Source: Candidatus Thorarchaeota archaeon (GTDB lineage: Archaea > Asgardarchaeota > Thorarchaeia > Thorarchaeales > Thorarchaeaceae). Taken from it: 64,000 nucleotides of DNA. This document shows positions 18,597 to 30,070 of this stretch, in pieces; within the stretch, counting starts at the first letter, position 1; the number at the start of each line of letters is the position of its first letter. The DNA is taken from positions 124,001 to 188,000 of the forward strand of contig JAIZWL010000004.1 in NCBI GenBank assembly GCA_021498125.1, in the 5' to 3' direction. The position numbers and the translations under genes were made by a program. The notes below the pieces were generated by a model. That model saw only the letters and a list, made by a program, of their open reading frames with translations. It made no database searches and was not told where the DNA came from.

Positions 18597-18635
18597 TAAA
18601 AATAAAAAACAGGCGGCCTGGATCATCACCAGGCC
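18597..18635 (-). terminator. Terminator for the YiiX-like gene
   Basis: GGCCTGG (18615-18621) pairs with CCAGGCC (18629-18635). Read on the minus strand the hairpin is followed by a T-rich tract (complement of 18597-18610). The loop contains the stop codon of the minus-strand gene. Confidence 0.75.
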
Positions 18636-19810
18636 ACCGAATCGATACGAAAGTAGACAGTGTATCGACAATCTCCCAAATCTACTCGGTAACCAGACCA
18701 ATACCAACCATGGTTGAGATACTGATGCCATGTTGAGGGGCTCCAGTACCATTGCCAGACTGGATACTGATCATCCGAGTCCACGCTATCTTGCTCCCAT
18801 GCCTCTATTCGGATCTTCGTATATCGGTTGTAGTTAATAACAGTGTAGAAGTACTTGTTCCAATCGAGAGCACCACTTCCACTGCGATGCCAATAGCCAT
18901 CAGGTGAGTCACCGATCTTCCCATTACCGGGATAGCCTTGTGCAGTTGGATACACACCATCTCCACTGAAACTCTTGATGTATTCTTCACCTGCGCCTTT
19001 CGGCCACGGATCATAGTCGTTGTCATAATAGATCTCGTCAACAAACACGGTGAGCTTGTAGAGCCCAGCCGAGGCTGACCACGTCGTAGTCCCCACTTCA
19101 CCTGCAATCACAGAAGTGTATTGACTGTGCCACAGGTCATCAGGTGACACACCAAGACCAAGCGTGCTTGTATCGCTATCAAGATCAATTCCTAGGACGT
19201 GATAGTAGGCAGCCCAGACAGCCTCTGAGCAATAGTATCCCTTGACGCCCGAGAGAGGGTTAGTCTCACTTGCGTAGACCTGTTTTGAGGTCCAGCCCCA
19301 ATCATACGCTGGTCCTACGGGATAACCGTCAGTCCCACCTGAGAGCTGCGACTTTAGAAAGTTAACAACTGCTTCCCGCTCGGATGAAGAGAGTGGAACA
19401 CCGTTTCCTTTCAGTACTCGCAACACAAGCACATTCTCAGCATGTTCATTGACCGCAGTCGCCCAAGTATCATAGCCAAGTCCATTCCCTTGTTCAGCAC
19501 TCTTTGTCGAATGAATGACGTAGGGTGTGTTCACTGGCATGTAGTTCTTGTGCGTTCGATCCCAGATTAACTCGCCGGGTTTGACCAGACCACAATACAT
19601 CTCGGAGTGAGAGAAGTCGCCAGGAATCAGATAGTCAGTCAAGGAACCAGGAGTTCCAAGTATGATTATGTCCCCAGGAAGGAGCCCGAGATTGCTTACT
19701 TGGTTGGTACCGCCAGACGAAAATGCAACAACTGGTTGGACGGGTGAGGAGAACGCGAAGATCACGAACAGCAAAATGATAGAGAGTACGAGTCGTTTTT
19801 GCCTTCTCAA
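18626..19810 (-). CDS. Secreted permuted papain-like (YiiX/NlpC-P60 type) protein
   Basis: A 394-aa exported protein. A signal peptide (about 1-29) precedes a permuted NlpC/P60-like cysteine-hydrolase domain. LLPGDIIILG opens it, FSHSEMYCG supplies the catalytic His (H68) and YYCSEAVWAAYY the Cys (C194), in the His-before-Cys order typical of YiiX/YycO-type enzymes. These cleave amide bonds in peptides or lipids. The last ~180 residues form an aromatic-rich beta domain (many Trp/Tyr, DSVDSDDQYPVWQWYW) of unknown type, perhaps for binding a polymer or surface. It acts outside the cell. Two inverted repeats lie upstream of the start. Confidence 0.75.
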   Translation of the reverse strand: MRRQKRLVLSIILLFVIFAFSSPVQPVVAFSSGGTNQVSNLGLLPGDIIILGTPGSLTDYLIPGDFSHSEMYCGLVKPGELIWDRTHKNYMPVNTPYVIHSTKSAEQGNGLGYDTWATAVNEHAENVLVLRVLKGNGVPLSSSEREAVVNFLKSQLSGGTDGYPVGPAYDWGWTSKQVYASETNPLSGVKGYYCSEAVWAAYYHVLGIDLDSDTSTLGLGVSPDDLWHSQYTSVIAGEVGTTTWSASAGLYKLTVFVDEIYYDNDYDPWPKGAGEEYIKSFSGDGVYPTAQGYPGNGKIGDSPDGYWHRSGSGALDWNKYFYTVINYNRYTKIRIEAWEQDSVDSDDQYPVWQWYWSPSTWHQYLNHGWYWSGYRVDLGDCRYTVYFRIDSVAW

Positions 19811-22028: not shown

Positions 22029-22484
22029 CTACGAGCGATCCTCTTGCGCGATGATATAGACCGGCCCATCATAGGAGGCTAGAGTGCGCTGTGAAATATC
22101 GCTCCCGTGTTCATCAACAAGAAGCCATTCCGAATCCACCGGGCGGTCTGCAAATGGCCAACCACGTTCCAGTGTGTCGTGATAGGTCAATTCCGGGGAT
22201 CCACGGACTATGCGTTGCTCGCCTGAATTTTGGTCAAATATCGCACGAACAGATATCGCAGGATTGTGGAATCTGAAAGCGCGATCGGGGCCATATACCT
22301 TCCCATGTAGAGGACCACGCTCAAGCAACACAAACAGGGAGATCGTAGCAGCCAATACGACAGGGTAAAACAGCATTGCCGCAATGGAGCTAACGAAAAA
22401 CTCTGGAATGAAGAAAAGGATAGAGAATATACTAAAAATAATACCTAAGAGAGAAACACCGACAAGTGATTGTAATTTACGCAT
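22029..22484 (-). CDS. Two-TM protein with beta-grasp-like C-terminal domain (family member 1)
   Basis: A 151-aa protein of a family I do not know. Two hydrophobic helices (about 8-29 and 33-54) anchor it in the membrane. The C-terminal domain (about 77-147) reads as strand (VRAIFDQ), turn, strand (QRIVRG), helix (ELTYHDTLERGW), loop, strand (WLLVDEHG), strand (DISQRTLASY), strand (GPVYIIA). That strand-strand-helix-strand-strand order and spacing is that of ubiquitin-like beta-grasp folds such as YukD/EsaB. Three further paralogs lie within 4 kb on the same strand. No diglycine tail is present. It stands alone between pckG and the divergent M29 aminopeptidase. Function unknown; the fold is my inference. 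Confidence 0.6.
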   Translation of the reverse strand: MRKLQSLVGVSLLGIIFSIFSILFFIPEFFVSSIAAMLFYPVVLAATISLFVLLERGPLHGKVYGPDRAFRFHNPAISVRAIFDQNSGEQRIVRGSPELTYHDTLERGWPFADRPVDSEWLLVDEHGSDISQRTLASYDGPVYIIAQEDRS

Positions 22485-22725
22485 TTGATAAATCTTCTAT
22501 GAAAACAGTAGTATTCTAGTGTTATAGACTATAGGACGGAGGCAAAATCGGATCATTTCATCAAAAATAGCGAAACTGGAGCCGTATTGGCCAGCCAGCA
22601 TAACAGCTGCTGCTTCAATAGTTCAGCAAGTTGACTCTATCACCTTATTCCTCTGAACCATATTATACCGAAGCGATGAATTATTAGGTGGAAGCATTTG
22701 TGTCCATTTGAGGCGAATTTTGAAA

Positions 22726-23790
22726 ATGGACCCACGAGTTGCCGAACATGCAAGGATAATTGTTGAGTGGAGCGCTGAGATCAAGAAAGGCGATAAGGTC
22801 ATCATCCGAGCCACTCCTGAAACTCAAGAACTGGTTGTCGCACTGAACCGTGAGCTCGCACGGGTAGGAGCGCATCCTGTAACATTAATGGAGTTGGAAG
22901 AGGCATCAAGAGCATATATTGATGCAGCAAGTGAAGAGACCCTTCAAGAAATACCAGACCATGTAAAGGCTCTATACGAGAATAGCGATGCGATTGTCAT
23001 GATCCGATCCCCGGCCAATACAAGAGCGATGGCTGGAGCAGATCAGAGAAAATTGGTCACTCTCAGTAAAGCGATGCGACCGATGTCCAACGTCATTCTC
23101 TCTAAACGATGGACCGTGACTGTCCACCCATGCAACTCTCTTGCACAACAGGCCAACATGAGCCTTGAAGAATACAGGGACTTCGTATACGGTGCCACTC
23201 TCCTTGATTGGAAAGAAGAGAGCAAATTGATGTATGTCCTCAAGGAACATTTGGAGCGCCACAGCGATGTCAGATTCGTCGGCCCTGAAACCGATCTCTA
23301 TGCAAAGACCGAAGGCAGGATTTGGATCGCGTCTGACGGCAAACACAACCTTCCAAGTGGTGAGGTCTTCACCGCACCTATAGAGGACACCGTGGAAGGC
23401 AAGATCTTTTTCGATATCCCATTCATGCAGAGGGGCAAGGTCATTCAGGGAGTCCGCCTGACATTTGAGAAGGGAGAGGTTGTCGATTTCTCAGCAGAAA
23501 AAGAAGAGGCCACCTTGAAATCGATCATCGAGACCGATGAGGGATCCCGTAGACTCGGTGAGATGGCAATAGGGACTAACCGAGGAATCCAGAAGTACAC
23601 CCTTAACATGCTCTTTGATGAGAAGATCGGTGACACTATTCATTGTGCACTCGGCAATGCATACAAAGAATGCAACGGCCGTAATGAGAGTGCCGTACAT
23701 GTTGACATGATAAAGAGCATGAAAGAAGGCGAGGTCATCGCTGGCGACGAAGTGATCTACTCCAAAGGCAAGTACCTCTGGGAAATGTAA
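22726..23790 (+). CDS. M29-family metallo-aminopeptidase (leucyl aminopeptidase, AmpS/AmpT type)
   Basis: A 354-aa cytoplasmic peptidase that removes N-terminal residues from peptides using two metal ions. The M29 signature acidic and His residues are visible in order: NLPSGEVFTAP, then RRLGEMAIG, then GDTIHCALG and SAVHVDM. The start at ATG 22726 (MDPRVAEHARIIVEWSAEI) matches the family N-terminus; an upstream TTG at 22708 is unlikely. A TATA-like ATATTATACC lies about 60 bases upstream. It sits between the first and second members of the two-TM beta-grasp family but on the other strand, so a functional link is uncertain. It fits peptide use as carbon source. Confidence 0.88.
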   Translation: MDPRVAEHARIIVEWSAEIKKGDKVIIRATPETQELVVALNRELARVGAHPVTLMELEEASRAYIDAASEETLQEIPDHVKALYENSDAIVMIRSPANTRAMAGADQRKLVTLSKAMRPMSNVILSKRWTVTVHPCNSLAQQANMSLEEYRDFVYGATLLDWKEESKLMYVLKEHLERHSDVRFVGPETDLYAKTEGRIWIASDGKHNLPSGEVFTAPIEDTVEGKIFFDIPFMQRGKVIQGVRLTFEKGEVVDFSAEKEEATLKSIIETDEGSRRLGEMAIGTNRGIQKYTLNMLFDEKIGDTIHCALGNAYKECNGRNESAVHVDMIKSMKEGEVIAGDEVIYSKGKYLWEM

Positions 23791-23811
23791 GGCAAGTAGT
23801 TTCTCTACTGT

Positions 23812-23835
23812 GACGGGGAGACTTGTCTTCCCGTC
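23812..23835 (+). terminator. Hairpin after the M29 aminopeptidase
   Basis: GACGGGGAGAC and GTCTTCCCGTC form an 11-bp stem with one G-T pair and a two-base loop. There is no strong T-tract. Confidence 0.4.
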
Positions 23836-23914
23836 CCCACTCCACTGACCAATCTACTAAGCAGTATCATCACATATGATCAGAGTTGCCGAACTTGATC
23901 AGACTGCCCGATAT

Positions 23915-24418
23915 TTATATTAAAGTAATATATGCGGGACCATCATATGATGCCAATGGCGCATTTGTGATATTCTCACCATGAGCATCATAGACGTTCC
24001 AATGTGCATGACGAGCAATTCTGGAAAAAGTCCAATACTCCAAGAGCGCCTCACGAAAAGTCGTCTCGGGTGAACCGTGGATAAGAATCTCATCCCCAGA
24101 GACTTTGTCAATAACAAAACGGTGCAGAACTGACATGTCCATTTCTGGGAACTTGAGAAACTCATGGACATATTCCCGATCCACATCCACTTCTATCGGT
24201 GGCGTGGATGTAATATATCGAGAATCTACGTCGTAAAAAAACTCCAGAAACAATTCAAGAACTGTAAAATAACCAATAACAAGCGCGATTAAGATGCCCA
24301 GGTTAATATTCGAACCACTAACTATGAATGCCAAAGCTATCAGAATAACAAGTGGGGAAAGCATCATAGCAATGCAAGTCGCATCATACTCGAAGGTTTC
24401 CGACAACGATTGCACCAC
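23915..24418 (-). CDS. Two-TM protein with beta-grasp-like C-terminal domain (family member 2)
   Basis: A 167-aa paralog of the 22.0-22.5 kb protein. Two hydrophobic helices lie at about 14-34 and 38-58. An acidic linker leads to the conserved domain (97-167): HRFVIDKVSGDEILIHG (two strands), SPETTFREALLEYW (helix), WNVYDAHGENIT and LASYDGPAYIT (last strands). The protein ends exactly at the last predicted strand, so the domain is the true C-terminus. Compared with member 1 the motifs G-S-P-E-x-T and L-A-S-Y-D-G-P are identical. No partner gene is in an operon with it. Function unknown. Confidence 0.6.
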   Translation of the reverse strand: MVQSLSETFEYDATCIAMMLSPLVILIALAFIVSGSNINLGILIALVIGYFTVLELFLEFFYDVDSRYITSTPPIEVDVDREYVHEFLKFPEMDMSVLHRFVIDKVSGDEILIHGSPETTFREALLEYWTFSRIARHAHWNVYDAHGENITNAPLASYDGPAYITLI

Positions 24419-24477
24419 CGTATACGATACTACTCGTAATCAGCCAAGGTTTTACCAAGTTCTTGATCACTAGGCAT

Positions 24478-24512
24478 TAGAAAAAAAACCGTGCCGGGAA
24501 CTGCTTCCCGGC
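24478..24512 (-). terminator. Terminator after family member 3
   Basis: GCCGGGAA (24493-24500) and TTCCCGGC (24505-24512) form a perfect 8-bp stem with a four-base loop. On the minus strand it is followed by GG and eight T. Confidence 0.85.
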
Positions 24513-25105
24513 TAATCATAGTACTCGACACTTGAATCAAGACTGGAATAGTCCGCTTCACTCGACTCCGGTGTATCAACAGGTAGATCGCCTACTATAC
24601 GAATTTTCGCAATCCCGTCAAAGAGCGAGAGTGATGAATCGGAGATGTCATTCCCACGTTCATCTGTGATGATCCAGTTTGATCCTCGGTCAATCTGAGA
24701 GAAACCCCAATACTTTCGAACCGCATCCCGAAATGTTGTATTATCACGTCCATGAACCACTATCTCCTCTTTCGTTGCGGGATCGACAATCACACGATGG
24801 ATTGTAGAAGTGTCAACACTGTGATAAGCTCCCTCCGGAGATTTGTCCATTTGCTCGTCCAGAGCTTCATCAACATCAAAGTGACCTAATCTACTATATC
24901 GGTAATACACCGTTTGCCGAATGCGAACCGCATTGGTCAGATGATCAGAGGTTGCATTAACGCAGATCAGCATGGACGAAAAAATCAATAATCCAACACT
25001 TAGATATCCAAGTGGACTATTTTTCAAGACGCCTGCTATAATTATTGTGACAAAACCAAGTATGCACAATAGTGATCCTATTCCATAGATGAAGTTCTTC
25101 CCCAA
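24512..25105 (-). CDS. Two-TM protein with beta-grasp-like C-terminal domain (family member 3)
   Basis: A 197-aa paralog. Two membrane helices (about 6-27 and 31-49) are followed by a charged linker and the conserved domain (100-171): IHRVIVDPATKEEIVVHG, NTTFRDAVRKYWGF, WIITDERGNDIS, SLFDGIAKIRIV. It then carries a 26-residue acidic tail ending in SSVEYYD, a tail that resembles the VECYD end of member 4. Its own promoter gap and a perfect terminator show it is monocistronic. The fold call rests on the strand/helix pattern shared by the family. No catalytic residues stand out, so it is more likely a binding or adaptor domain. Confidence 0.6.
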   Translation of the reverse strand: MGKNFIYGIGSLLCILGFVTIIIAGVLKNSPLGYLSVGLLIFSSMLICVNATSDHLTNAVRIRQTVYYRYSRLGHFDVDEALDEQMDKSPEGAYHSVDTSTIHRVIVDPATKEEIVVHGRDNTTFRDAVRKYWGFSQIDRGSNWIITDERGNDISDSSLSLFDGIAKIRIVGDLPVDTPESSEADYSSLDSSVEYYD

Positions 25106-25330
25106 AGTACTCTTTCTCCTTTCTTACATTATCTCAAATCAATACCTCTTTTATGAAAGTTCAACCAGAAAAATAATGTGGTGTTGTGGAGAGCAAATGG
25201 GTCAATGTAAACGATTGGAGAAAATCGCTGTGCATCTATGCGTAGAGGTGAATGGTTGATAATCGGGCTTCGGTCCAACCTCTGCCAAGTGTGTTTAACA
25301 TCAAGTCCAAAGACAAAATCCTTCTGCCAT

Positions 25331-25368
25331 AAAATAGTAAAAAAGGGCGGGGAAAATAGGCCCCGCCC
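25331..25368 (-). terminator. Terminator after family member 4
   Basis: GGGCGGGG (25345-25352) and CCCCGCCC (25361-25368) form a perfect 8-bp stem. On the minus strand it is followed by six T and a further T-rich stretch. Confidence 0.85.
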
Positions 25369-25384
25369 ACGACTGCCTCCCATA

Positions 25385-25957
25385 TTAGTCATAGCACTCT
25401 ACCTCTTGGCTACGACCAGAATAGACGGTCTCAAATGGTCCTACAAACAAGTCCGGCCATATCTCCTCCTCTGAACCAATTGATGCGTTCCCCAAGGGTG
25501 ATGAGAGTAGAGAATTGGTGGTGACCTTCTCTCGCCCATCGGTAATTCTCCAAATAGACCTGCGGACATTCTCTTGAGAGATCGTGTTTTCATTATCATT
25601 GACAGAAGACTCGTCGTTGATCAGATGATAAGCAATAGTACGGTGCAACATTGAAAGACATTCATCACGATAAACACTCAGAGGGCCTTTCTCTGTGGTG
25701 GGTATTAGATTACAAGATGTATAGGAGGTCTCAGTCAACTGGCGTGCAAAAATAGGGACCGAAAATATGCGAGATTCTACAATGGTTTTGGACACTGCCA
25801 GCAAGGATGTGATAAGAACGAGACCGACTCCTAAATAGAAAAACAGAAGCGCCTCTGAAAGTGTAATAACGATCAGAGAGAGGAACACCAATAGCACTGT
25901 GTCTATGGTAATCCCGTGAAGCGCGGCGTTTCCCACAATGTTGCACCAGTTTTTCAT
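25385..25957 (-). CDS. Two-TM protein, divergent member 4 of the beta-grasp-like family
   Basis: A 190-aa protein starting at MKNWCNIVGN (25957); the frame is open further upstream into the opposite-strand flavin protein gene, but that part is not coding. Two hydrophobic helices lie at about 17-36 and 38-57. The C-terminal region keeps only part of the family pattern: MLHRTIAY, SQENVRRSIWRITDGREKV and TNSLLSS align with the helix and third strand of the others. It lacks the conserved G-S-P-E-x-T block and the D-G before the last strand. It ends SQEVECYD, like the tail of member 3. It is either a fast-evolving or degenerating paralog. Divergent from the 26.08-29.6 kb operon. Confidence 0.5.
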   Translation of the reverse strand: MKNWCNIVGNAALHGITIDTVLLVFLSLIVITLSEALLFFYLGVGLVLITSLLAVSKTIVESRIFSVPIFARQLTETSYTSCNLIPTTEKGPLSVYRDECLSMLHRTIAYHLINDESSVNDNENTISQENVRRSIWRITDGREKVTTNSLLSSPLGNASIGSEEEIWPDLFVGPFETVYSGRSQEVECYD

Positions 25958-29716: not shown

Positions 29717-30070
29717 ATGAGTCTGCCTGAGGAAGAGGTCACCCAGATCATCCAAGAGATGATACAAGAAGGCATTCTCAAAGGCCATATCTCTGATGAT
29801 GGAACACGTTTCTTCAGGCAGATAGACAGTCTCATCTCGTCGATACATCACGAGGAGATACCACTCGAGTTCATGGAATACGACTCACGTCCGGGAATCG
29901 CGGCTGCTCTTGTTGGTTTCGTCGCTATCATTGTTGTAAGTATCTTGCGTCCATTTCTTCTAGGAAGTGGACGGTATGAGTTGGAATTGGTATTTTATTA
30001 CACTCTACTAATGGGAATGACCACTATCTTATTCGGATGTTACTATGTCGGAAGGAAACCAACACCATAG
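29717..30070 (+). CDS. Winged-helix (PCI-like) N-terminus with two C-terminal TM helices; 5' end probably broken
   Basis: The called frame (117 aa) begins MSLPEEEVTQIIQEMIQEG, the last two helices of a winged-helix domain like those in PCI and related proteins, and ends in two membrane helices (about 62-80 and 88-110). The domain is incomplete from this ATG. Upstream, in the same frame, 16 more codons (IKKISAIQLSSED among them) supply the missing first part, but no start codon. Before those lies a TAA (29666-29668) preceded, still in frame, by 28 codons starting at ATG 29582, which overlaps the aminotransferase stop in an ATGA. The natural reading is one gene of about 162 codons interrupted by a TAA. 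Function unknown. Confidence 0.5.
   Translation: MSLPEEEVTQIIQEMIQEGILKGHISDDGTRFFRQIDSLISSIHHEEIPLEFMEYDSRPGIAAALVGFVAIIVVSILRPFLLGSGRYELELVFYYTLLMGMTTILFGCYYVGRKPTP

Follow-up and report, generated by a model that had tools for sequence, protein, structure and literature searches.

A Thorarchaeota-specific family of membrane-anchored proteins with a predicted ubiquitin-like domain and, in nearly half of its members, a conserved C-terminal tail

What use would an archaeon that reportedly lacks true ubiquitin have for ubiquitin-like proteins held in its membrane? The question is raised by four minus-strand genes at positions 22029-25957 of the window analysed here, a 64-kb stretch of DNA from a Candidatus Thorarchaeota archaeon to which all positions refer. 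Asgard archaea are studied to learn how the eukaryotic ubiquitin, endosomal sorting complex required for transport (ESCRT) and proteasome systems arose, and Thorarchaeota are the odd group, in which ESCRT and proteasome are kept and true ubiquitin is reportedly lacking. An earlier note, made from sequence alone, had described four open reading frames of 151, 167, 197 and 190 amino acids (aa) at this locus; all four were found again with these positions and lengths, and we call their products P1–P4 by rising coordinate. We infer, with fair though far from full confidence, that they belong to a set of membrane-tethered, non-conjugated ubiquitin-fold adaptors specific to Thorarchaeota. The genes and their domains are as follows.

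22029-22484, minus strand: P1 (151 aa, ATG start); two transmembrane (TM) helices and a C-terminal ubiquitin-fold domain, no tail
22044-22259, minus strand: predicted ubiquitin-fold domain of P1, residues about 76-147; AlphaFold2 predicted local distance difference test (pLDDT) 92-97 over most of the domain, Foldseek and VIA-align matches
23915-24418, minus strand: P2 (167 aa, GTG start); two TM helices and a ubiquitin-fold domain, with the stop right after the last strand
23918-24142, minus strand: putative ubiquitin-fold domain of P2, residues about 93-167; assigned from homology alone (family profile E 6e-27)
24512-25105, minus strand: P3 (197 aa, TTG start, with a GGAG ribosome-binding-like sequence upstream); two TM helices, a ubiquitin-fold domain, an acidic linker and a conserved C-terminal tail
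24590-24814, minus strand: predicted ubiquitin-fold domain of P3, residues about 98-172; pLDDT 94-97, Foldseek and VIA-align matches
25385-25957, minus strand: P4 (190 aa, ATG start), putative paralog of P3 in degenerate form; retains the TM helices and the tail, with a 10-residue deletion in the domain core

The beta-grasp, ubiquitin-like (Ubl) domain proposed in the earlier note is borne out by AlphaFold2 models of P3 and P1, run with 15 family sequences. Both domains are predicted, with pLDDT mostly above 90, to have the order strand, strand, helix, strand, strand. When these models were compared with the PDB by Foldseek, nearly all of the top 50 matches were Ubl folds at probability 0.99-1.00, including ubiquitin, SUMO, NEDD8, Hub1, RAF Ras-binding domains, phosphoinositide 3-kinase (PI3K) adaptor-binding domains and the Ubl of EccD5; a bacterial Ubl (8tyx) was matched at E 2.4e-4. 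VIA-align gave Z scores of 7-8 with UFM1, the RAF Ras-binding domain and TINCR near the top, and singly such scores are not strong, yet almost every chain listed has the ubiquitin fold. A beta-grasp assignment for at least three paralogs, which the earlier note had sought, was reached by modelling for P1 and P3 and by profile homology for P2. On the strength of the two models, membership of the C-terminal domain in the ubiquitin-like beta-grasp superfamily is well supported. The family cannot be assigned to a named Ubl family because no sequence model recognises it: neither Pfam (15 members searched) nor NCBIfam (four members) gave a model above cut-off, and a profile search of PDB sequences matched no Ubl chain. 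The earlier note knew of no described family of this kind, and we found no paper describing one.

The C-terminal halves of the four proteins were aligned locally, each pair against 1000 shuffles. The z-scores were 32.8 for P2–P3, 25.6 for P1–P2 and 18.4 for P1–P3, each reached in 0 of 1000 shuffles, and a search of the whole genome with P3 matched P2 at 1.9e-16 and P1 at 3.4e-8. By these comparisons P1, P2 and P3 are clear paralogs. P4 scored 10.2 against P3 and 6.1 against P2 (0 of 1000 shuffles in both cases) and -0.4 against P1, so the above-chance similarity previously claimed for the whole set holds for P1–P3 and for P4 with P3 and P2, and fails for P4 with P1. The motifs said to be common to all four are shared by P1–P3 only: in P4, the 10-residue deletion removes the invariant W-x-F segment and G-x-D-I-S is also gone, whereas the tail is retained. 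The match of P4 to the family profile is weak, its score being reached by 1-10 of 2000 shuffles, and no convincing relative of P4 was found in the other genomes searched. To judge from its z-scores, P4 is a diverged, degenerate copy of its neighbour P3.

The family extends beyond this locus: of 59 related genomes searched with P3, 28 contain relatives. A profile search of Asgard genomes, as the earlier note had proposed, recovered the family and placed it in Thorarchaeota alone: 35 of the 47 genomes of the same GTDB family (Thorarchaeota) have members, in up to five copies, and no convincing member was found in the 180 other Asgard genomes of the phylum set (n = 227). Three of these 180 genomes gave partial matches at E 6e-5 to 8e-3, some with internal stops, which were dismissed as chance. 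Viral contigs (IMG/VR), phage records and plasmid records yielded no relative. Iterating the search over the fetched loci brought the family to 57 distinct members, and an alignment of 24 domains has an invariant R, W and F and the strong pattern W-[IL]-[IV]-x-D-x-x-G-N-D-[IV]-[TS]. We regard a genuine Thorarchaeota-specific family, in both fold and membership, as well supported.

The two N-terminal TM helices noted earlier for each protein were recovered by a simple hydropathy scan in P1–P3, and by eye only in P4. The same scan finds two N-terminal hydrophobic helices in 43 of the 57 members and none in 12, some of which are fragments or short forms. In the 43 two-helix members, Lys and Arg average 0.13 per 15 residues in the loop between the helices and 2.26 after helix 2, and are more frequent after helix 2 than in the loop in 41 of them. 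Because of this strong positive charge after helix 2, the positive-inside rule would place both protein ends, and thus the domain, in the cytosol; that the domain lies at the cytosolic side of the membrane is reasonably supported, with the orientation taken from charge.

Is the domain a tag to be conjugated? The earlier note had remarked on the missing diglycine end, and indeed no member listed has Gly-Gly after the domain. Thorarchaeota are seemingly without true ubiquitin homologues, the one Asgard group so reported (PMC9192718). The test for E2 enzymes was a phylum-wide search with PF00179 (UQ_con) in the 227 Asgard genomes, the controls of the E2 and ubiquitin searches in the host genome itself having been silent. 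PF00179, which leaves UFC1-type E2 enzymes outside the test, was found in 0 of 47 Thorarchaeota genomes compared to 168 of the 180 other Asgard genomes, matching the published lack of ubiquitin. A role as a conjugated modifier or in binding E2 is therefore unlikely, and the lack of both a diglycine end and a detectable E2 suggests that the domain is a docking surface rather than a tag. SAMP-type modifiers work without an E2.

A feature that the earlier note did not mention is a common C-terminal peptide in which P3, P4 and about twenty relatives end. Its ending is of the hydrophobic residue–tyrosine–any residue (HbYX) kind.

24515-24550, minus strand: C-terminal tail of P3, YSSLDSSVEYYD-COOH, with the HbYX-like end Y-Y-D (alignment of 22 tails)
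25388-25423, minus strand: C-terminal tail of P4, YSGRSQEVECYD-COOH, which aligns with the P3 tail

The consensus is Y-[ST]-[ST]-I-x-x-[GS]-V-[ET]-[YF]-Y-D-COOH, carried by nearly half of the family. In 22 distinct tails, Asp at position -1, Tyr at -2 and Val at -5 each occur in 20, and position -3 is Tyr or Phe in all 22; a further block, Y-[ST]-[ST]-I, occupies positions 9-12 from the end and is preceded by a variable acidic linker. A tree of the family divides into two deep groups, only one of which has tails (21 of 38 rows). The estimated number of changes on the tree is eight, so the tail has been gained or lost repeatedly. The 47 genomes were also scanned with a DNA pattern that encodes the last five residues: all readable gene-sized reading frames that carry it are family members, and of five sites that lack a readable locus one is a known member. 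Other matches outside the family lay in frames of fewer than 100 residues or had TGG codons and were rejected. Two members (L024:307-867 and L027:632-1192) end in another extension, DHLPEWWD, in place of the common tail.

What might the tail bind? The HbYX motif consists of a hydrophobic residue at peptide position P3, Tyr at P2, any residue at P1 and a free carboxylate, peptide positions being counted back from the C-terminus (PMC8907193, PMC11475706). The carboxylate contacts a lysine of the 20S alpha pocket (PMC8907193, PMC12352868, PMC11475706), and human proteasomes favour Tyr at peptide position P3 and Phe or Tyr at P2 (PMC8907193). Twenty of the 22 tails end in aromatic-Tyr-X, that of protein P3 in Y-Y-D, and on the level of sequence the Y-Y-D and F-Y-D ends fit the general rule; proteins P1 and P2 have no tail and hence no HbYX end. 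In the same genome are genes for two alpha and two beta subunits of the proteasome and for a PAN that ends in L-Y-S, a canonical HbYX (loci L119-L123 on contigs C1, C2 and C3). The pocket-lysine site, aligned by eye, is Lys in both alpha subunits (TTLKKILLID and DSIEKISQID). Because the tail peptide obeys the HbYX rule, the 20S alpha ring would be its most likely partner, and we put it forward as a tentative hypothesis that we ourselves consider doubtful.

The tail resembles the HbYX docking proteins PAN, Rpt2/3/5, PA200/Blm10, PAC1-PAC2 and archaeal PbaA/B in its hydrophobic or aromatic residue, Tyr, final residue and free carboxylate, and differs from them in being conserved over about 12 residues and in its Asp end. 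To our knowledge, none of these is a small membrane Ubl protein.

In the favoured scheme, a two-helix hairpin would anchor the protein in the cell membrane and present the ubiquitin-fold domain to the cytosol as a fixed docking surface. In nearly half of the family, a flexible acidic linker would end in a conserved peptide that binds a second partner; were this the 20S proteasome alpha ring, proteasomes would be held or activated at the membrane. An archaeal proteasome linked to the membrane in this way would be new in kind, and the family is a concrete, testable candidate for a connection between membrane proteins and degradation or sorting that needs no conjugation.

Several points weigh against the proteasome end of this scheme. 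Two tails (F-G-E and F-F-D) depart from the HbYX rule, and P4 ends in C-Y-D, with Cys at peptide position P3. Neither clade I nor many members of clade II, proteins P1 and P2 included, have a tail at all. HbYX ends occur on about 0.93% of archaeal proteins (PMC11475706), and since the tail-bearing members share one ancestry, the match could be a single coincidence. The fixed Asp and Val exceed what HbYX demands, and the fixed Asp at peptide position P1, together with conserved residues 5-12 from the end that HbYX docking does not need, may indicate another receptor. Finally, the neighbouring genes, annotated in part across 40 regions, are mostly metabolic. The proteasome is put forward as a candidate partner only.

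A bolder version of the scheme would be that Thorarchaeota dropped conjugated ubiquitin and that tethered Ubl proteins, some with a proteasome tail, label sites on the membrane for ESCRT or the proteasome without E1, E2 and E3; we think this improbable. Close to it stands an alternative in which the tethered domain replaces conjugated ubiquitin as a sorting or recruitment mark read by Thorarchaeal ESCRT. The pattern of ubiquitin and E2 invites such an idea: the family is restricted to the Asgard group without ubiquitin (PMC9192718) and E2, its domain is predicted on the cytosolic membrane face, and ESCRT genes are kept in Thorarchaeota (PMC9192718). However, presence and absence in one lineage amount to one event and not to a correlation. 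Proteins with a UEV domain, the known receptor, are reported from every Asgard genome analysed other than those of Thorarchaeota (PMC9192718), no ESCRT gene was identified among the annotated neighbours, and the likeness to ubiquitin that is established is that of the fold and not of the exposed face. We judge a replacement of this kind quite improbable.

Could the domain instead recruit an Asgard small GTPase to the membrane through a site like that of a Ras-binding domain? Ras-family GTPases are present in Asgards (PMC12993045), and RAF Ras-binding domains are, with UFM1, among the closest-ranked structural neighbours (Foldseek E 5.0e-4 for P3; Z 7.8-8.0 for both models). Ubiquitin, UFM1 and SUMO match equally well, however, so that the RAF match reflects only the fold. 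The basic Ras-contact residues are not evident in the Thorarchaeal domain, which by eye has a glutamate in strand 2 where RAF has basic residues. With no GTPase among the recurrent annotated neighbours as well, we consider this reading decidedly unlikely.

The earlier note had compared the domain to YukD/EsaB, which would point to a component of a type VII-like secretion system. YukD/EsaB and EccD are indeed prokaryotic ubiquitin folds linked to a membrane system, and the EccD5 Ubl appears in the Foldseek list (E 1.0e-3 for P3 and 3.3e-3 for P1). It is only one of many equal matches, Pfam gives no sequence match, and the likeness to YukD/EsaB goes no further than the shared fold. YukD/EsaB is a small soluble protein, and the domain order is opposite to that of EccD, whose Ubl precedes its TM helices, whereas the Thorarchaeal domain follows them. 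No FtsK/EccC-type ATPase or WXG100 protein occurs among the recurrent annotated neighbours; the genome was not searched for EccC. A secretion role is very unlikely.

Tethered Ubl adaptors as a class are known in eukaryotes, and what appears new here is this family together with its anchor, tail and setting. TMUB1 and HERP, with TM-anchored, cytosolic, non-conjugated Ubl domains, have another TM arrangement, no sequence match to the Thorarchaeal family and no HbYX-like tail. The eukaryotic MUB/UBL3 proteins are likewise ubiquitin folds on the cytosolic side of a membrane that are tethered and not conjugated (PMC4996978), and the Foldseek matches include a ubiquitin-like structure from Arabidopsis, At2g32350 (2kan). 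MUBs, however, have a C-terminal prenylation anchor and bind E2 (plant MUB, PMC4996978), as opposed to two N-terminal TM helices and an extra C-terminal tail in the Thorarchaeal family; no member listed has a Cys near its C-terminus that could form a CaaX box, the single Cys of P4 not being in a CaaX context. Binding and control of E2 enzymes as in MUB/UBL3 is the least probable reading of all, given PF00179 in none of the 47 Thorarchaeota genomes and in 168 other Asgard genomes.

The remaining features of the locus lie between and behind the four genes.

22708-23790, plus strand: M29 aminopeptidase-family gene (Pfam M29 E 3.5e-75), between P1 and P2
24493-24512, minus strand: terminator-like hairpin 3' of P3 (terminator scan)
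25345-25368, minus strand: terminator-like hairpin 3' of P4 (terminator scan)

Because the plus-strand M29 gene sits between P1 and P2, the array of P1–P4 is interrupted. Separate terminators, earlier ascribed to all four genes, were found by the scan for P3 and P4 and not for P1 and P2, and such sites are no more frequent here than in shuffled sequence.

In the 40 regions, the recurrent annotated neighbours are metabolic, protease and transport genes, and none of them was recognised as a secretion, ESCRT or ubiquitin gene. The M29 peptidase gene recurs in 18 loci. Tail-bearing members mostly adjoin it, a citrate/arsenite-type permease, a GNAT protein and a phosphoenolpyruvate carboxykinase-like gene (the last by eye), and other subgroups adjoin an ELP3-type radical SAM gene or a subtilase. 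In one locus (L063:3999-9074), a 1692-aa subtilase-domain protein is encoded directly before a tailless member, with relatives in L065 and L072 (three genomes).

Two further genes of the window were noted. A small conserved protein at 29717-30070 (plus strand), with a winged-helix-like start, TM helices and no Pfam match, adjoins a TauE permease in nine loci and has relatives in L035, L036, L043, L047, L058, L063, L065 and L072. The gene at 18626-19810 (minus strand) encodes a protein that is predicted to be secreted and that shows, by eye only, a YiiX/NlpC-like permuted papain pattern close to the N-terminus.

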